Of a stretch of 43,607 nt of DNA, positions 4,987 to 43,607 are shown piece by piece. The translations under genes and the position numbers were made by a program. The stretch is from contig PGYT01000044.1 of NCBI GenBank assembly GCA_002839805.1, forward strand, positions 1-43,607. The letters are read 5' to 3'. Source of the stretch: Ignavibacteriae bacterium HGW-Ignavibacteriae-2. Its GTDB lineage: Bacteria > Bacteroidota > Ignavibacteria > Ignavibacteriales > Melioribacteraceae. Numbering within the stretch: position 1 is the first letter of the stretch; each line of letters starts with the position of its first letter. Under the pieces are notes generated by a model. It made no database searches, had not been told where the DNA came from, and was given only the letters and a program-made list of their open reading frames with translations.

Positions 4987-7290
4987 ATGAATAAAAACAA
5001 CTTAAATGTTTTCTATAATTTTGTAAAATGTTTGCCTGCAATTATCTCTTTTGTGCTGCCACTTAACATTATGGCTCAAACACCAGAACTTATCGGTCCT
5101 CCAGGGGACTTCCCATATGCGCTTTTTATCCATCCAACCGATCACAGCAAAATCTATGGATCAAATTATTATGGAGGTTTGTTTTATTCCATTGATGGGA
5201 GTCAGTCGGAGATAATTGAGAATGGTAATATGAAAGTTAATCAGATATACGTTTCTCCTCTAACTGGTGATATGTTTGTATATACACGTTCCTTATTTGC
5301 AAGAAAAAAATATTTAACTGATCAATGGGAATTAATTTATGATGACAATGGTTATCCACCAATTATAAGCCAATTCTGCGTAAATCCAGTTAACTCAGAG
5401 ATAATGTATATGCACAGATACGGCAGTGAGATATGGCGTAGTAACGATGGCGGCGATAGCTGGCATTTTATTCATAAGTTTGAAGGCAATTTTGAGAAAA
5501 TGGCTATCGCTCCGTCTGACACTTCAGTATTGTATGCCGCAGCGGGAGCAAATTTGTATAAAACGAAAGATTCCGGCAATAACTGGTTTAAGCTTCTTGC
5601 CGATTCGATTCGAATATCATTTGATCAAATAGTAATAAATCCCCGAAATTCGAATACGCTTTTCATTAAAGGAAACAATCGTCTTTATAGAGTTCGAAAT
5701 TCTGTAATAGATACAGCTGGGATTTACGATCCTGTAAATTTCATTATCGATCCTGTTGACACTACTATTATGTATGCGTCCAAAAATGATAGCTTATTCG
5801 GCACAGGAGAAGGCTTATACAAAAGTGTTGATGCGGGAGATACATGGAGTCATTATCCGACTGAAGGGCTGCCTTATCAGGGTGCTACAATTAATGTGTC
5901 AATTATTAATCCATCTGATCCAAAAATTATCTACGGAACTGTCCCTCGTTTTGGTGTATTCAAAACTACTAATGGCGGTTCTAACTGGGAAGTTACCAAT
6001 ATAGTTTGTGAAGGGAGTAATTCTTTAGGTTACGAAATAATAAATGGAAATCGTGGCGAAGTTATTTGTGTCAGTGATGGCTGGAATATAATTAAAACAA
6101 AGGATATGGGAAAAACCTGGTATAAGCCAAAAGTTGAACCCCAGGAAAGTAAGAGTTTTCATTATTATTTTAGTACACTGTCCTTTAACCCCGAAGATAA
6201 AAATGAAGGACTGTTTATTGACGGTACACGATTATATAAAACTACTGATGCAGGTGATAGTTGGTATGAAACGGAGAGATTTAATAATTGTACAGGGGTC
6301 AAATATCATGATTTTAATCCAAATATTATTTATGTATCGTCAATTGAAGAAGGATATATAGCAAAACATATCACTTTTGATGGTGGAATAAGCTGGTCTA
6401 TTAAGCCCTCCTACTCCCCACACCTCTTTAGTTCTATTGAGGAAAATATTGGCTACACCTACCAACCCGGTCATGTACTGAAAACTACTGATTTTGGGCA
6501 AACCTGGGCAACAAAGGATTCAGGCCTAAAAATTCAAACGGATAGGAAAGTAGCGTACATTAAAGATTTGGCAATTTCCGAGAGTAATCCAAATGTGCTA
6601 TATTCATGTCAGTATAATTTGTTTAACTTAACGGAATTGATAAAAGCAGTTTCAAAAAGTACGGATGGAGGGGAAAACTGGTTTAGTATAGATTCCTCAT
6701 TATATTTAGTTGATCCTAATTTTAGGCCGAAGAGTTTGATGGTTGATCCGGAAAATCCGGATCGGTTATTCCTTGGGTTAGAACAAAACGGTATTTTCTA
6801 TGAGGATGATTATAGTCCCGGTGGTTTATACCTAACAGAAAATGGGGGTAAGGACTGGAAAAAATTATTTAGTGGAACTGTTAACAGAATAAAATTGGAT
6901 GACTCATCACCGAAGAACATTTATTTTCATACTAATTACGGAATTATACGCCTGCCCGACACAGCAAAAGTAACCGGCATTATCCGAACTTCCCAATTTC
7001 CGCAAGAGTTTTACTTAAGCCAGAATTACCCAAACCCGTTTAATCCAAGCACCATAATTGAATATAACATTCCTTCAGCAAGTCAAGCTGGCAACTTGAA
7101 TAACAACATTACTTTAAAAGTTTATAACATAGTCGGGAGAGAGGTTGCAACGATTGTAAATAAATCCCAGAAACCGGGAAATTACAAAGTAAAATTCAAC
7201 GGAGCGGGATTAGCCTCAGGTATATATTATTACAGGCTCGTAAGCGGAGAAAAGTATGTTTCAACAAAAAAAATGATTTATTTAAAATGA
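4987..7290 (+). CDS. Secreted Asp-box beta-propeller protein with type IX sorting tail
   Basis: A 767-residue exported protein. A signal peptide ends near residue 31 (LNIMAQ). About eleven Asp-box-like repeats of the form S/T-x-D-x-G-x-x-W follow (for example SNDGGDSW, TKDSGNNW, SVDAGDTW, TTDAGDSW, STDGGENW), which in sortilin/BNR proteins close beta-propeller blades. The last 85 residues are a type IX secretion C-terminal domain: SQNYPNPFNPSTIIEY, VYNIVGREV, GNYKVKFNG and SGIYYYRL. It is therefore expected on the cell surface or outside. The ligand or substrate is unknown; no catalytic sialidase FRIP motif was seen. It stands between two transsulfuration enzymes with no obvious link. Confidence 0.92.
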   Translation: MNKNNLNVFYNFVKCLPAIISFVLPLNIMAQTPELIGPPGDFPYALFIHPTDHSKIYGSNYYGGLFYSIDGSQSEIIENGNMKVNQIYVSPLTGDMFVYTRSLFARKKYLTDQWELIYDDNGYPPIISQFCVNPVNSEIMYMHRYGSEIWRSNDGGDSWHFIHKFEGNFEKMAIAPSDTSVLYAAAGANLYKTKDSGNNWFKLLADSIRISFDQIVINPRNSNTLFIKGNNRLYRVRNSVIDTAGIYDPVNFIIDPVDTTIMYASKNDSLFGTGEGLYKSVDAGDTWSHYPTEGLPYQGATINVSIINPSDPKIIYGTVPRFGVFKTTNGGSNWEVTNIVCEGSNSLGYEIINGNRGEVICVSDGWNIIKTKDMGKTWYKPKVEPQESKSFHYYFSTLSFNPEDKNEGLFIDGTRLYKTTDAGDSWYETERFNNCTGVKYHDFNPNIIYVSSIEEGYIAKHITFDGGISWSIKPSYSPHLFSSIEENIGYTYQPGHVLKTTDFGQTWATKDSGLKIQTDRKVAYIKDLAISESNPNVLYSCQYNLFNLTELIKAVSKSTDGGENWFSIDSSLYLVDPNFRPKSLMVDPENPDRLFLGLEQNGIFYEDDYSPGGLYLTENGGKDWKKLFSGTVNRIKLDDSSPKNIYFHTNYGIIRLPDTAKVTGIIRTSQFPQEFYLSQNYPNPFNPSTIIEYNIPSASQAGNLNNNITLKVYNIVGREVATIVNKSQKPGNYKVKFNGAGLASGIYYYRLVSGEKYVSTKKMIYLK

Positions 7291-36893: not shown

Positions 36894-37424
36894 ATGAGCG
36901 AATTTAGAGAAATAGTTGAAACCTATCAGGTTAAAGTACGCAATATTTGTTTCCGTTATGTGAACAATGTTGATGACGCTGATGATATTGCTCAGGAAGT
37001 GTTTATACAGGTATTTGAGTCAATTTCACATTTTAGGGAGGAAGCACAAATTTCAACATGGGTTTACAGAATTGCTGTAAACAAATCACTCGATTTTATA
37101 AGAAGAAAAAATCGTAAAAAAAGATTTGCTCAACTTACATCTATATTTAAAGCGGGGGAAGAAGAGCAAATAATTGAAATCCCTTCTTATAACACTCCGG
37201 ATAAAGATTTGGACGACAAAGAAAGAAAAGAAGTACTTGATATGGCTCTAAGTAAAATCCCTGAAAATCAAAAAACTGCAATAGTTTTGAGCAAATATGA
37301 AGGATTTAGCAATAATGAGATTGCGAAAATAATGAATTTATCATTATCTGCAGTAGAAGCATTGATACATCGTGCGAAAAAAAATTTACATAAGGAATTG
37401 TATAATTATTTTGAAAAAAATTAA
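36894..37424 (+). CDS. ECF-family RNA polymerase sigma factor
   Basis: A 176-residue sigma factor. Region 2 shows FRYVNNVDDADDIAQEVFIQVFES and then FREEAQISTWVYRIAVNKSLDFIRRKNRKKR (2.3-2.4); region 4 shows LSKIPENQKTAIVLSKYEGFSNNEIAKIMNLSLSAVEALIHRAKKNL. It would direct polymerase to a small stress or metal regulon, most likely the genes that follow, which encode a membrane anti-sigma candidate, a periplasmic sensor and an efflux system. Confidence 0.94.
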   Translation: MSEFREIVETYQVKVRNICFRYVNNVDDADDIAQEVFIQVFESISHFREEAQISTWVYRIAVNKSLDFIRRKNRKKRFAQLTSIFKAGEEEQIIEIPSYNTPDKDLDDKERKEVLDMALSKIPENQKTAIVLSKYEGFSNNEIAKIMNLSLSAVEALIHRAKKNLHKELYNYFEKN

Positions 37425-37812: not shown

Positions 37813-38361
37813 ATGGATATTTTTAAACAAAAACGCTATTTGATATTATTAGTAGTTCTTCTTATCATTTTTAATTTAGCAACGCTCATTATGATTTGGC
37901 TGAATAAACCGCAGCGGCCCATAATGGATAGACAGCATCAGGGACCAGGACAGGAAACTACACATATTAAGCAGCTTCTAAAAGATGAACTGGGCTTTGA
38001 TGAAACACAGATCAAACAGTATTTAAAGATGCAGGCTGAACAACGGAAAAAAGTTTTACAATTACAAAATGAAATTCAGCAAATTAAAAAACAAATGTTT
38101 GATGAGGTTTTGAAGGACAGCCCAGAGCCAACACTTTCTGATTCTCTGCTAACTTTAACGCAGGAAAAAATGGTTGTGCTCGAACAGCTTACCTACAGTT
38201 ATTTATTAGAACTTAAAAATCTGTGTAAACCGGAACAACGCGATAAACTTAAATTTCTGATAGGCGAATTTTTCCGCCAGAATCCACCGGGGGGGATAAA
38301 TAGTGATAGACCTCCACCACCACCTCCTTTTGGAGCTGAACAGCCGCCGCATAAAAATTAA
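37813..38361 (+). CDS. Spy/CnrX-like periplasmic sensor protein
   Basis: A 182-residue protein anchored by one N-terminal helix (about 10-29), followed by a helical periplasmic domain: LKDELGFDETQIKQYLKMQAEQRKKVLQ, a long coiled helix, then LCKPEQRDKLKFLIGEFF. That layout is the heavy-metal-resistance/CpxP-Spy fold (LTxxQ-like repeats). A Pro-rich tail (PPPPPPFGAEQPP) ends it. CnrX proteins hand a metal signal to an anti-sigma factor, so it fits with the two genes ahead. Eight bases separate it from the anti-sigma gene. Confidence 0.78.
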   Translation: MDIFKQKRYLILLVVLLIIFNLATLIMIWLNKPQRPIMDRQHQGPGQETTHIKQLLKDELGFDETQIKQYLKMQAEQRKKVLQLQNEIQQIKKQMFDEVLKDSPEPTLSDSLLTLTQEKMVVLEQLTYSYLLELKNLCKPEQRDKLKFLIGEFFRQNPPGGINSDRPPPPPPFGAEQPPHKN

Positions 38362-38856: not shown

Positions 38857-40137
38857 ATGAAAAATAGAAAAAGAACAATAGTAATAGCAGCAGCAATTAT
38901 TCTAATTATCACAAGTGCTGTATTTGTGCTCAATGCAAATGGAAAAGTTGAATATGTTTTTGACACCGTTAAAGTTGAGAAAGGATCAATTAGTAATATT
39001 GTTACAGCAACTGGAACGCTGGAAGCAACAAATACAGTTGTGGTAGGTACTCAGGTTTCCGGCGTAATTGAAAAGTTATACGTTGACTTTAATTCGAAAG
39101 TTAAAAAAGGTCAACTTATTGCAGAACTTGACAAATCTACGTTACAATCTAATCTGGAAAATGCTGAGGCTGATCTTTCGAACGCTGAAGCAGAATTTGA
39201 ATATCAGAAATCAAACTTCGAAAGAGATAAGCAACTTTTTGAAAAAAAAATGATCTCAGAAAGTGGTTATGATTTAAGTAAATACAATTATAAAAAGAGT
39301 GAAGGTGCACTCAAATCGGCAAAGGCAAATTTAAATAAAGCCAAACAAAATTTGAGTTATGCAAAAATTTATGCCCCGATTGATGGTATTGTTACTAACA
39401 GAGCTGTTGAAGAAGGGCAAACTGTCGCTGCAAGTATGAGCACTCCGGAACTCTTCACTATTGTAAATGATCTTACCGAAATGCAGGTTGAAGCTGATGT
39501 TGATGAGGCGGATATTGGAGTGGTAACTGAAGGACAAAGAGTGGAATTTACAGTTGATGCATTTCCGGATGAAACTTTTACCGGAAAAATCACTCAGGTC
39601 AGGCTGCAGCCAAAAGAGTCTTCTAATGTTATAACTTATACTGTGATTGTAACAGTTGCTAATCCGGATCTGAAGTTAAGGCCGGGAATGACTGCAAGCA
39701 TAACTGATTATGTACAGGAAGTAAATGATGTTCTTGTTGTATCCGGAAAAGCAATTCGTTTTACACCAGATAGAGAAATAATGATGGATTATTTTGACTC
39801 ACTTCCGGAAGATAAAAGACCACAACGTAATATGGGACCAAAGCAGGATGGTAAAGAAGATGTTAATGATGAAGGAAAAAGAGAAGAATTGTCGGAAAAT
39901 ATGAAATTAGTATGGATCAAAAACGGGGATATAATTAAGCCGATGATGGTTGAAACCGGAATGACAGATGGAACAAATTTAGAAATCCTATCCGGTCTTA
40001 ATGAGGGTGATGAAATAGTAACTTCTATGGGAATCGGAACCGGTTCCTCAGTTGAAAATGAAAATGATAAAGAAACACAAAAAAGTCCATTTATTCAGGA
40101 ACGACCAGGTAAATCTGAAGGTGGTCCGGGAAGATAA
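38857..40137 (+). CDS. MacA/HlyD-type periplasmic adaptor
   Basis: A 426-residue membrane fusion protein. An N-terminal helix (8-26) anchors it; biotinyl-lipoyl halves GTLEATNTVVVGTQVSG (about 53-70) and YAPIDGIVTNRAVEEGQTV flank a coiled-coil hairpin (about 95-165, rich in Asn/Ala/Glu); beta-barrel and MP domains follow. A low-complexity Asp/Glu/Lys insert (about 320-345) and a Gly/Pro tail are odd. It would bridge the ABC permease to an outer-membrane TolC-like channel, not encoded here. Confidence 0.92.
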   Translation: MKNRKRTIVIAAAIILIITSAVFVLNANGKVEYVFDTVKVEKGSISNIVTATGTLEATNTVVVGTQVSGVIEKLYVDFNSKVKKGQLIAELDKSTLQSNLENAEADLSNAEAEFEYQKSNFERDKQLFEKKMISESGYDLSKYNYKKSEGALKSAKANLNKAKQNLSYAKIYAPIDGIVTNRAVEEGQTVAASMSTPELFTIVNDLTEMQVEADVDEADIGVVTEGQRVEFTVDAFPDETFTGKITQVRLQPKESSNVITYTVIVTVANPDLKLRPGMTASITDYVQEVNDVLVVSGKAIRFTPDREIMMDYFDSLPEDKRPQRNMGPKQDGKEDVNDEGKREELSENMKLVWIKNGDIIKPMMVETGMTDGTNLEILSGLNEGDEIVTSMGIGTGSSVENENDKETQKSPFIQERPGKSEGGPGR

Positions 40138-40139
40138 AA

Positions 40140-40919
40140 ATGAAATCAAATAGTATTATAGAATTAAAGAGTCTTAGTAAAAATTATGCTGTTGGCACTG
40201 AAACCGTAAAAGCTTTGCGGGATGTTAATCTTATAATTGAAGCGGGTGAATTTATAGCAATTATGGGAGCAAGTGGATCCGGCAAGTCAACACTACTAAA
40301 TATTTTAGGGTGTTTAGATAAACCCACTGGCGGCGAATATTGGCTTGATGGAACAAATGTTAATTCATTAAAACGAAATCAACTTGCAAATATCCGGAAC
40401 ACAAAAATTGGGTTCGTTTTTCAGTCTTATAATCTTTTGCCACGTACTACTGCCTTAGAAAATGTGGAGTTGCCCTTGTTGTATAATTCCGGTGTAAGTA
40501 ACAAACTCCGCAGAGAAAAAGCAGAAAATGCTTTGGAAGCAGTTGGACTTGCAGACAGAATGAAACATCTTTCAAATCAAATGTCCGGTGGGCAACAGCA
40601 GCGTGTAGCAATAGCCCGCTCATTAGTAAATGATCCGGTGATAATTTTAGCCGATGAAGCTACGGGGAATTTGGATACTAAAACTTCTTTTGAGATTATG
40701 AGTTTATTCCAGGAATTAAACCAAAATGGAATAACAATCGGGTTTGTAACTCATGAACCTGACATAGCCGCGTTTACAAAGAGAAATATTGTTTTCCGTG
40801 ATGGAAGGTTAATTAAAGACAATGGAGTAAAAAATATATCCAGTGCCCAAATAGCCCTCGAACAATTAAAAGAAGAGGAAAATTTACAAGAGAAATTAGA
40901 ATTGGCTTATGCGGGATAA
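40140..40919 (+). CDS. MacB/LolD-type ABC transporter ATP-binding protein
   Basis: A 259-residue ATPase. Walker A is GASGSGKST (about 42-50), Q-loop FVFQSYNLLPR, signature MSGGQQQRVAIARSL, Walker B VIILADEATGNLD and H-loop FVTHE. All fit the MacB/LolD/FtsE group. The last 35 residues are an extra Glu/Leu-rich helix. It begins three bases after the adaptor and is a separate gene, unlike E. coli MacB where ATPase and permease are fused. Confidence 0.94.
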   Translation: MKSNSIIELKSLSKNYAVGTETVKALRDVNLIIEAGEFIAIMGASGSGKSTLLNILGCLDKPTGGEYWLDGTNVNSLKRNQLANIRNTKIGFVFQSYNLLPRTTALENVELPLLYNSGVSNKLRREKAENALEAVGLADRMKHLSNQMSGGQQQRVAIARSLVNDPVIILADEATGNLDTKTSFEIMSLFQELNQNGITIGFVTHEPDIAAFTKRNIVFRDGRLIKDNGVKNISSAQIALEQLKEEENLQEKLELAYAG

Positions 40920-40999
40920 ACCATTATTCATAATAAGCTTGCTTTATGGTTGGCAGGCATAGCCAAATATCTAAATTATTAATAAATCAAGTAGATAAA

Positions 41000-42220
41000 A
41001 TGAACACATTAAATTTAATCAAAGTAGCTATATCAGCAATCAAGAGAAATAAAACACGGTCGTTCCTAACAATGCTGGGCATAATAATCGGAGTTGCCTC
41101 AGTAATTTCCATGCTTGCAATTGGAGAAGGATCAAATGCAAGCATTAAAGAACAAATATCTACAATGGGTACAAATCTTATTCACATCCAACCTGCCAGT
41201 AGAAGCAGGGGTGGTGTTCAGCAAGGCAGAGAAATGTCTCAAACACTTGAGGTGCAGGATGCTGATTTCATAAGAGAAAACTGCGATAAGATTAAGGCAG
41301 TATCTCCGGAAGTTGATGGTTCAGGCCAGGTAATTTTTGGCTCAAATAATTGGCCGACACAAATTATAAGCGGGAATGAAGAATATACTTATATCAAAAA
41401 GTATGATGTTGCCAGCGGCAGAATTTATAACTCACAAGAGATAAAAAGTGCTGCAAAGGTTTGTTTACTTGGACAAACTGTTGTTGACAATCTGTTTGAA
41501 GATGGTGTTAATCCAATTGGGCAGACTGTACGATTTAACAAAATACCATTTAAAGTAATTGGTGTGCTGGCCGAAAAAGGGGATAACACTTTTGGTCAGG
41601 ATCAGGATGATATAATTCTAGCCCCCTACACAACAGTTATGAAACGAATAACGCGCCAAACTTATCTGCGTGCAATTGTTATGTCTGCCGTATCAGAAGA
41701 TGAAATTGATACAGCAAGTGCTCAAATAGAAGGAGCAATGAGGATTTCACATAAGTTGAAAGATACCGATGAAAATGATTTTGAAATTAGAACACAGCAG
41801 GAGTTAATGAGTACATTCGGATCAATATCAGAAATGATGCTTGTACTGCTTGGCTCTATCTCTGCAATTTCGCTGATTGTGGGGGGTATTGGAATTATGA
41901 ACATAATGTATGTTTCCGTTACAGAACGTACCCGGGAGATAGGTCTAAGATTAGCAATTGGTGGTAAAGGCAATGATATCTTAATGCAGTTCCTAATAGA
42001 AGCTATTTTACTAAGTGTAATCGGAGGGATTATAGGAGTTGGACTCGGCATCTTTGCTTCAAATACTGTTGAAAATATAATGGGTTGGCCAATACTTATT
42101 ACAAGCGATGCCATACTCTTATCTTTTCTTTTCTGCTCTTTTATTGGGGTGTTTTTCGGCTGGTATCCGGCAAAAAAAGCTTCTGCATTAGACCCAATTG
42201 AAGCTCTGAGGCATGAATAA
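41000..42220 (+). CDS. MacB-like ABC transporter permease
   Basis: A 406-residue permease. One N-terminal helix (RSFLTMLGIIIGVASVISMLAIGEG) leads to the periplasmic MacB_PCD domain (about 45-245), then three FtsX helices: MLVLLGSISAISLIVGGIGIMNIM, LIEAILLSVIGGIIGVGLG and ILLSFLFCSFIGVFFGWYPAKKAS, ending DPIEALRHE. These are diagnostic. The ATG at 41000 is chosen over 40946 since it begins at the conserved MNTLNLIK. Together with the two genes ahead it forms a tripartite efflux pump for an unknown substrate. Confidence 0.94.
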   Translation: MNTLNLIKVAISAIKRNKTRSFLTMLGIIIGVASVISMLAIGEGSNASIKEQISTMGTNLIHIQPASRSRGGVQQGREMSQTLEVQDADFIRENCDKIKAVSPEVDGSGQVIFGSNNWPTQIISGNEEYTYIKKYDVASGRIYNSQEIKSAAKVCLLGQTVVDNLFEDGVNPIGQTVRFNKIPFKVIGVLAEKGDNTFGQDQDDIILAPYTTVMKRITRQTYLRAIVMSAVSEDEIDTASAQIEGAMRISHKLKDTDENDFEIRTQQELMSTFGSISEMMLVLLGSISAISLIVGGIGIMNIMYVSVTERTREIGLRLAIGGKGNDILMQFLIEAILLSVIGGIIGVGLGIFASNTVENIMGWPILITSDAILLSFLFCSFIGVFFGWYPAKKASALDPIEALRHE

Positions 42221-42513: not shown

Positions 42514-42729
42514 ATGTCAATTAAAAGTATAAATGGATGCATTGGCTGTGAAACTTGTATAAAATCGTGCCCAACTGATGTAATCCGTTTAGATCCAAAT
42601 ACAAAGAAAGCAATAATAAAGTATCCGGAAGATTGCCAGATCTGTCATTTATGTCGTATGAATTGTCCGGTGGATGCTATTACTATTGCACCTGAAAAGT
42701 ATATTCCAGTTATAGTTTCGTGGGGTTAG
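42514..42729 (+). CDS. Dicluster 4Fe-4S ferredoxin
   Basis: A 71-residue cytoplasmic electron carrier with two cluster motifs CxxCxxCxxxCP: Cys9, 12, 15, 19 and Cys41, 44, 47, 51. The C-terminal EKYIPVIVSWG is like that of AprB-type and related ferredoxins that serve flavoprotein reductases. A GTG at 42490 is in frame, but the ATG at 42514 has GGAG eight bases upstream. It is the first gene of a three-gene redox module. Confidence 0.92.
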   Translation: MSIKSINGCIGCETCIKSCPTDVIRLDPNTKKAIIKYPEDCQICHLCRMNCPVDAITIAPEKYIPVIVSWG

Positions 42730-42732
42730 GAA

Positions 42733-43380
42733 ATGAATAAAAATTCAAAAATAGACTATCTTATACCTGCAACCGGAATCTTTATCGGCCTGCCGCTGCT
42801 TTTCTGGGCATTAGGCGATTTCCCGCGCCGAACCGTTCTCAAAGAATCGATTTCAATTCTGTTCATTCTATCTTTCAGCCTTATGCTCGGACAGTTTTTT
42901 CTTGGCCGGGGTAACAGGAGCATTGTAAAAAGATTCAAAATGGGTACAGTTCTCAGATATCATAAGGTAATTGCTTATTCCATAGTTGGTGTATTCCTGG
43001 TTCATCCCTTTCTTATTGTGGTTCCCAGATATTTTGAATCAGGAGTAACGCCAATGGAGGCATTCATTACCATCATTACAACTTTTGACAGTTTGGGTGT
43101 TGTGCTCGGGCTAATTGCATGGACCCTGATGCTTCTTTTGGGAATAACATCTTTCATCCGTAAGCGGCTTCCGTTAAAATACATAACCTGGAGATACTTT
43201 CACGGTATTTTCTCCATACTGTTTATATCATTTGCTACTTTTCATGTGATTGACCTTGGCCGTCACACAAATCTGGCTATGTCCGTTTATATGATTATTC
43301 TTGCTGTAAGCGGCGTTGTACTGCTTTTAATAACCTATAGTAAAGTGCCTGATAAATTAGAAAGGAGGGCAAATGACTAA
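42733..43380 (+). CDS. Ferric-reductase-like di-heme membrane protein
   Basis: A 215-residue integral membrane protein with about six helices. Two His pairs, His77/His91 and His157/His171, each spaced HX13H, are the heme b ligands of the ferric reductase/NADPH-oxidase transmembrane family, and would set two hemes across the membrane. No FAD/NAD domain is attached. It should pass electrons from the cytoplasmic ferredoxin to the outside. It starts three bases after the ferredoxin and overlaps the flavoprotein gene by eight. Confidence 0.88.
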   Translation: MNKNSKIDYLIPATGIFIGLPLLFWALGDFPRRTVLKESISILFILSFSLMLGQFFLGRGNRSIVKRFKMGTVLRYHKVIAYSIVGVFLVHPFLIVVPRYFESGVTPMEAFITIITTFDSLGVVLGLIAWTLMLLLGITSFIRKRLPLKYITWRYFHGIFSILFISFATFHVIDLGRHTNLAMSVYMIILAVSGVVLLLITYSKVPDKLERRAND

Positions 43381-43607
43381 TTTAAATGAAAATAACGGAA
43401 TGTCCCGTCGTCATTTTATTACATTGGCCGGAGGAACGGCAGGTATGGCAGCCCTTGTTGCAATGGGTGTCCCGGCAGGGTGGGCAAAAAATGAATCAGA
43501 TGTTAATTTAGAGACGATGAACATAAAAGAAAATAAATCAGACGTATTGGTTATCGGCGGAGGAATGGCAGGATTATTCGCAGCAGTTAAAGCTCATGAC
43601 GCGGGAT
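43373..43607 (+). CDS. Tat-exported FAD-dependent oxidoreductase (3' cut by window edge)
   Basis: Start ATG at 43373 with a strong AAAGGAGGG site. The visible 78 residues hold a twin-arginine signal (SRRHFITLAGG, about 11-21, then an Ala/Gly-rich hydrophobic stretch to about 35) and an FAD-binding loop, DVLVIGGGMAGLFAAVKAHDAG, in the style of fumarate reductase / AprA-like flavoproteins. The catalytic part lies outside the window, so the substrate cannot be told. A Tat signal means it is folded with FAD in the cytoplasm and works in the periplasm. Confidence 0.87.
   Translation, partial: MTNLNENNGMSRRHFITLAGGTAGMAALVAMGVPAGWAKNESDVNLETMNIKENKSDVLVIGGGMAGLFAAVKAHDAG

Follow-up and report, generated by a model that had tools for sequence, protein, structure and literature searches.

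The window analysed here, 43,607 nucleotides of contig PGYT01000044.1 from Ignavibacteriae bacterium HGW-Ignavibacteriae-2, ends on its 3' side in three abutting or overlapping genes, which encode a dicluster ferredoxin, a membrane cytochrome bearing two HX13H pairs, and a Tat-signal FAD protein. The ferredoxin and cytochrome open reading frames (ORFs) are spaced by 3 bases, and the flavoprotein ATG, at 43373, gives an 8-base overlap with the cytochrome ORF, just as a sequence-only reading of this DNA had laid the genes out. The triad and its upstream context comprise the following features.

36894..37424, + strand: ECF sigma factor (context)
37813..38361, + strand: small protein with a Pro-rich tail at its end, without a Pfam match; resembles cluster c28 by reading (context)
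38857..40137, + strand: HlyD/MacA-type adaptor with a C-terminal tail containing Gly/Pro (context)
40140..40919, + strand: ABC exporter ATPase, read from the sequence motif GASGSGKST (context)
40946..42220, + strand: MacB-type ABC exporter permease (context just upstream, outside the triad)
42514..42729, + strand: dicluster 2[4Fe-4S] ferredoxin, 71 aa; two CxxCxxCxxxCP motifs, Fer4, tail PVxVSW(G/R)
42733..43380, + strand: NOX/ferric-reductase-type membrane cytochrome b, 215 aa; Ferric_reduct, with H77, H91, H157 and H171 as likely heme ligands
43373..43607, + strand: 5' end of the Tat-signal FAD protein (SDH/FRD/APR superfamily); continues at C24:43623-45056 past 15 Ns

Pfam recognizes Fer4 (6e-10) and Ferric_reduct (5e-12) in the first two products. 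In the flavoprotein part that the window holds, FAD_binding_2 is just over its cut-off (3e-4) and TAT_signal under it (0.0015). This N-terminal part reads MSRRHFITLAGG...DVLVIGGGMAG, up to the end of the window, which stops where an assembly gap of 15 Ns (43608-43622; L002:3609-3623) falls inside the gene. Following the gene past the Ns, a check that the sequence-only reading had proposed, recovers 478 aa (L002:3624-5057), with about 31 residues lost in the gap by comparison with P0001, the G015 protein. The contig extends another 13 kb beyond the window, and its genes downstream of the triad encode a TonB receptor, DUF4249, an LTXXQ-like protein just under cut-off, CotH, DUF4956 and VTC proteins. 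Elsewhere in this genome (G000:C46:4702-5274, L004) the final portion of the flavoprotein gene occurs again in decayed form, 82% identical to the triad copy and broken by two stops. Near this copy lie an AraC-type regulator, identified by reading, and a Gly/Pro-containing protein resembling those beside other triads.

The triad is conserved well beyond this genome. Two peptide patterns scanned in named genomes gave 144 loci encoding relatives, a scan that favours close relatives because only two patterns were used, and 80 loci were kept. All three genes occur in 72 of these 80 related loci, across several phyla, so that their linkage is above chance, and the conservation of the gene set, on which the sequence-only reading had staked its proposal, is borne out. 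The taxa include Bacteroidota, Pseudomonadota, Thermodesulfobacteriota, Campylobacterota, Spirochaetota and others, often marine judging by names; in Paracoccus seriniphilus the triad is on a plasmid. Flavoprotein identity across related loci is 60-78%. The genes run ferredoxin, cytochrome, flavoprotein in 62 of the 80 loci, cytochrome, ferredoxin, flavoprotein in nine, and ferredoxin, flavoprotein in four; five are special cases. L065 is a full triad at a contig edge, with cytochrome matches at 938-1492 between the ferredoxin and the start of the flavoprotein match at 1531, while L050, L054 (which has a cytochrome) and L073 are cut off by contig ends. In L021 the ferredoxin is reduced to its final codons (TISPEKSIPVIVSWG, stop) ahead of the cytochrome, at about 5287-5331, joined to unrelated DNA, apparently through a break in assembly or recombination.

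Within the phylum, the cytochrome query finds a match in 2 of 58 near relatives and in 7 of 395 genomes, three of them strong, and the flavoprotein query reaches 1e-60 or better in 3 of 395, the own genome being counted each time. The unit is therefore rare and patchy there. No cytochrome match was found in either genome listed in the same genus, nor a flavoprotein match in G001, the same-genus genome covered by that search. The cytochrome query of genome contigs gave no match; the flavoprotein alignment did find loci. Changes of taxon label in the tree do not prove transfer. One triad of the same phylum (L013, G151), in a small genome that is perhaps a Chlorobium relative, lies near genes that read as magnesium-chelatase subunits. 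Among the matches listed from the open-licence literature, titles and abstract beginnings revealed no publication on this gene set, which does not imply absence elsewhere.

By sequence and predicted fold, the flavoprotein is a member of the complex II/APS-reductase superfamily. In two flavoproteins scanned, FAD_binding_2 and Succ_DH_flav_C each exceed the Pfam cut-off. Every NCBIfam cut-off listed lies above the protein's score, the best being 163 bits against a cut-off of 587; aprA scores 88 for P0001 and 78 for P0002 (cut-off 641.75 bits) and MFR_Fp_SdhA 61 and 46 (cut-off 1100 bits). On this point the sequence-only reading is supported. A structure model of the L014 protein (43 sequences, pLDDT 71, pTM 0.78) is closest to the PAPS reductase alpha subunit 8a8o_B (Z 34.1, 2.8 Å, 439 aligned), followed by FrdA and AprA with Z about 30. 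A Tat motif, an RRxF-type twin arginine followed by a hydrophobic stretch, is present in the window flavoprotein and in 77 of 83 flavoproteins compared; export is predicted, and the earlier assignment as a Tat flavoprotein holds.

The active site was compared with the SdhA and NadB of the same genome, as the sequence-only reading had suggested in outline. Both active-site histidines are retained in 83 of 83 flavoproteins. We take the PRD-motif Arg of the capping domain and the second Arg, in an NRL motif, to be the catalytic residues of fumarate reductase and succinate dehydrogenase. The first Arg of SdhA faces a gap in 82 of the 83, and the column of NadB's first catalytic Arg holds His in 47, Arg in 27, Asn in eight and Lys in one. 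At the second Arg all 83 have Met or Leu (against SdhA) or Tyr (against NadB). This comparison passes through a badly aligned lid, and SdhA and NadB are not aligned with each other at the Arg places; more weight therefore goes to the conservation of 43 sequences, in which neither the stretch from one His to the other nor the segment of the second Arg contains an Arg conserved in 90%. Because there is no conserved Arg at the catalytic places, the protein is not called a fumarate reductase. The position of the covalent-FAD His of SdhA is Q in 54, L in 22 and otherwise M, E or a gap, and the FAD is most likely non-covalent.

A variable-length segment replaces the SdhA-type capping domain in all 83 flavoproteins. 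Its composition is unusual: in the last 50 residues before the IHKSEG motif, Gly and Pro together make up 30-66%, with a median of 46%; over their full length, 666 control proteins have a median of 11%. This Gly/Pro-rich lid is disordered in the model at 327-371, and the pocket is unreadable from the model because pLDDT is under 50 over much of the lid.

The cytochrome carries its histidine pairs at H77/H91 and H157/H171, confirming the two HX13H motifs; all 68 cytochromes aligned (56 short, 12 long) have His in these four columns. The window protein matches PF01794 and has no flavin/NAD domain by Pfam, so the description of it as a ferric-reductase-like part standing alone is upheld. The model (pLDDT 90) is closest to SpNOX (Z 16.8, 3.8 Å, 184 aligned); Foldseek E-values are weak, 0.055 at best, and no sequence relative was found in the PDB at E 1. 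As modelled, the cytochrome has the NOX/ferric-reductase fold.

Nine gammaproteobacterial loci form a clade with support of 100, in which the cytochrome is longer and the ferredoxin is kept. The long cytochromes of all nine have GQF, HPFS and GGxGxxP motifs, eight of the nine have CGP, and in L078 Pfam finds FAD- and NAD-binding domains on the same chain. At L088, L089 and L092, where the triad itself includes the short cytochrome, a longer relative of the cytochrome family with flavin/NAD motifs is encoded some kb away; these separate genes account for three of the 12 long proteins aligned and do not show two HX13H pairs at that spacing.

Ferredoxin relatives occur in 76 of the 80 loci, 66-87% identical to the window ferredoxin. 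They lack a signal peptide of their own and end in PVxVSW(G/R) in most aligned rows; generic ferredoxins match the window protein better than AprB does. The four loci without a detected cytochrome (L072, L080, L046 and L068) all keep the ferredoxin. In the spirochaetes L072 and L080 an iron-sulfur membrane protein, which we take to be NapH-like (by Pfam for L080), lies downstream, and no membrane feeder was seen at L046 or L068. A presumed NapH-like protein with FMN_bind (Pfam) also accompanies the ferredoxin, three FAD proteins and tat genes in Ilyobacter. There (plasmid pILYOP01, L095) the ferredoxin gene and the tat genes, annotated downstream as tatA, tatC and tatA, flank a tandem array of three flavoprotein paralogues that contain Gly/Pro-rich stretches; the third paralogue has a Tat signal and the other two do not. 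In the spirochaetes L058, L067 and L072, genes that read as tatC and as two TatA/B-like proteins directly follow the flavoprotein. The type of membrane feeder thus changes from locus to locus while the ferredoxin stays, which makes the feeder exchangeable and ties the ferredoxin to the flavoprotein.

These observations point to a transmembrane redox unit, a reading slightly more likely than not. The NOX-type cytochrome b would carry electrons over the inner membrane and feed a periplasmic two-subunit enzyme, AprAB/PAPS-reductase-like, in which the dicluster ferredoxin partners the Tat-exported FAD protein. Because this two-subunit plan is also that of PAPS and APS reductases, the ferredoxin is regarded as a probable subunit exported with the flavoprotein: signal-less itself, it may be carried out folded on its partner by Tat hitchhiking, by analogy, which would place it in the periplasm. 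The FAD would then reduce a periplasmic acceptor, probably no fumarate-type dicarboxylate, and the Gly/Pro-rich lid may help to choose or hold that acceptor. Flavoproteins that are 60-78% identical from Bacteroidota to Vibrio, roseobacters, sulfate reducers and spirochaetes, yet fall under all listed model cut-offs, make a widespread acceptor likely. If the wiring is right, a ferredoxin joins c-type hemes and FMN domains as a means of connecting an exported flavin enzyme, with membrane feeders that can be exchanged.

The sequence-only reading had drawn the electron route differently, with a cytoplasmic ferredoxin reducing the cytochrome in place of the missing flavin/NAD domain and the FAD protein alone in the periplasm. 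This arrangement is possible, if doubtful. It agrees with the lack of a signal peptide on the ferredoxin, with the gene order that prevails in 62 of the 80 loci and with the absence of another visible donor to the short cytochrome. Against it, the nine-member clade whose cytochrome has its own flavin/NAD domain also keeps the ferredoxin. So do the two spirochaete loci and Ilyobacter, with a NapH-like protein nearby, and the loci where no cytochrome is seen. The iron-sulfur subunit of APS/PAPS reductases, described in PMC10322725, likewise speaks against this arrangement. Of the proposed route, the conserved triad, the cytochrome fold and the Tat signal stand, and the ferredoxin as stand-in for a flavin/NAD domain is not supported.

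The genes around the triad were sampled at 83 loci (1,061 kb) and compared with a 766-kb control drawn from nine of these genomes. Recurrent neighbours are Lcl_C (33), CotH (25), Spy-like (17), VTC (12), HlyD (11), DUF4956 (10), EF-hand (9) and c17 (7), each with a control count of 0; since the family models derive from these same neighbours, the test lies in the control counts alone. BaeS-like kinases number 19 near the triad against 11 in the control, and LytS-like kinases 14 against one. At least one counted partner class is present in 52 of the 83 loci and none in 31. Promoter and terminator scans stayed near chance level. The c17 proteins (L046:5274-5582, L047:4340-4612 and relatives) are small and secreted-looking, with a GPP(P/E)EA motif, Cys residues and no Pfam match; no relatives were found in plasmids or E. 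coli.

Such neighbours raise the prospect of a periplasmic repair or detoxification reductase that works in the manner of MsrPQ and serves Spy-like chaperones and envelope proteins. MsrQ is itself a heme membrane protein of the same superfamily as the cytochrome, Spy-like genes lie at 17 of the 83 loci and are missing from the 766 kb control, and two-component genes lie at 29 of the 83. Against this, the catalytic protein differs, using FAD and not molybdenum, 31 loci have no counted partner family, and the Spy-like label comes from weak sub-cut-off matches (LTXXQ 5.7e-5, DUF4890 0.003). A repair system of this kind is rather unlikely.

The neighbours also share a composition with the lid. With at least four Pro and at least six Pro plus Gly in 10 residues as the definition, 41 of 738 neighbours are Gly/Pro-rich against 3 of 666 proteins in 40 control stretches. 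Several thresholds were tried, and of five compared this one ranks second by odds ratio and gives the lowest p-value, the others giving odds of 4.7 to 19; because the loci are related, the p-values overstate independence. With the threshold set first, at 11 of 20 residues, 21 of 800 neighbours passed against 1 of 335 in the control; for seven genomes compared with control stretches of their own, it was 1 of 85 against 1 of 335. Nine genomes compared at the quoted threshold have 8 of 101 at their loci, and the controls taken from them 3 of 666. By family, the 41 comprise Spy-like c5 (7), LytS-like kinases (5), BaeS-like kinases (4), c28 (3), EF-hand c36 (3), c45 (3), Lcl_C (2), one each from c17, HlyD and two other clusters, and ten single proteins, with no CotH (c4). 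Neighbour genes were called as longest ORFs, and some of the ten relative-less single proteins may be spurious ORFs. The sensors show a related trend: in the first 190 residues, Pro makes up 4.2-9.5% of triad-side LytS-like proteins (13 scored) against 1.1% in one control, and 1.9-7.0% of triad-side BaeS-like proteins (12 of 19 scored) against 0.7-2.1% in controls (4 of 11 scored). The BaeS-like sensors are not uniformly Pro-rich, three from Campylobacterota being low.

That unrelated neighbour families are marked in this way hints at a shared ligand, and the marking is a concrete handle toward it. The ligand is perhaps polyphenol-like, by a likeness of composition and theme; other shared ligands, or a structural role of the Gly/Pro segments, are just as conceivable. 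The polyphenol idea arises because salivary disordered Pro-rich proteins bind tannins (PMC5525358) and because tannin strongly induces E. coli Spy, which is under Bae and Cpx control (PMC8144458). In its fullest form, the triad would be the redox core of an envelope system in which Gly/Pro segments of the lid, the sensors' outer parts, Spy-like proteins, EF-hand proteins, surface Lcl_C and exporters bind one ligand class, plausibly polyphenols or humic-type aromatics such as algal tannins, that the flavoprotein reduces. This picture is quite improbable as a whole. If true, it would describe a bacterial counterpart of tannin-binding proline-rich proteins, tied to respiration or detoxification.

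The direction of flow in the favoured transmembrane unit, outward to a reductase, can also be turned around, with the FAD protein as a periplasmic dehydrogenase that passes substrate electrons inward. Its superfamily includes succinate dehydrogenases as well as fumarate reductases, and both active-site His are retained. NOX/FRD cytochromes, including the form with a flavin/NAD domain, are nevertheless known for outward flow, and reverse flow is distinctly improbable. An ordinary periplasmic fumarate reductase of the MfrABE type with a drifted active site is very improbable: it would account for the superfamily, Tat signal, iron-sulfur partner, membrane cytochrome b and the Arg found in 27 of 83 at the NadB column, but not for the lack of any 90%-conserved Arg at either catalytic place (43 sequences), the Gly/Pro-rich stretch in the capping region or scores so far below the NCBIfam cut-offs, the Mfr model included.

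The flavoprotein is thus a conserved variant of the complex II/APS-reductase flavoenzyme kind, tied to a ferredoxin and a NOX-type cytochrome and bearing an unusual lid, for which no name was found. APS and PAPS reductases are cytoplasmic enzymes. AprAB and the Methanothermococcus PAPS reductase (PDB 1jnr/2fja, 8a8o) have the same FAD-subunit fold and are among the nearest in profile and fold searches, yet identity to the flavoprotein is 19-24% over aligned parts, and the aprA score is low. The triad has a Tat signal, an adjoining membrane cytochrome and a Gly/Pro-rich lid, which AprAB and PAPS enzymes lack. The pairing with a ferredoxin, here known from gene linkage, recalls their second (beta) subunit, a dicluster 2[4Fe-4S] ferredoxin (PMC10322725).

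SpNOX and the wider NOX/FRD superfamily share the transmembrane fold with two His pairs; their dehydrogenase domain is missing in the window protein and present in the gammaproteobacterial clade. MsrPQ/YedYZ resembles the triad in pairing a Tat-exported redox enzyme with a heme membrane protein of the ferric-reductase family, but its exported enzyme is a molybdoenzyme, whereas here a FAD protein and a ferredoxin take its place. MfrABE differs from the triad in that its cytochrome subunit is MfrE, where the triad has a NOX-type cytochrome, and the triad flavoprotein scores far under the Mfr model and has no conserved Arg at the catalytic places. Common to both is a Tat-exported, periplasm-facing SDH-like flavoprotein (PMC4148689). 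Flavinylated fumarate-reductase-like systems, as presented in PMC8238504, resemble the triad in combining extracytosolic PF00890 enzymes with exchangeable electron-transfer modules; they differ in their FMN-binding domain, which is absent from the two triad flavoproteins scanned and appears, as FMN_bind, in the membrane protein of Ilyobacter.
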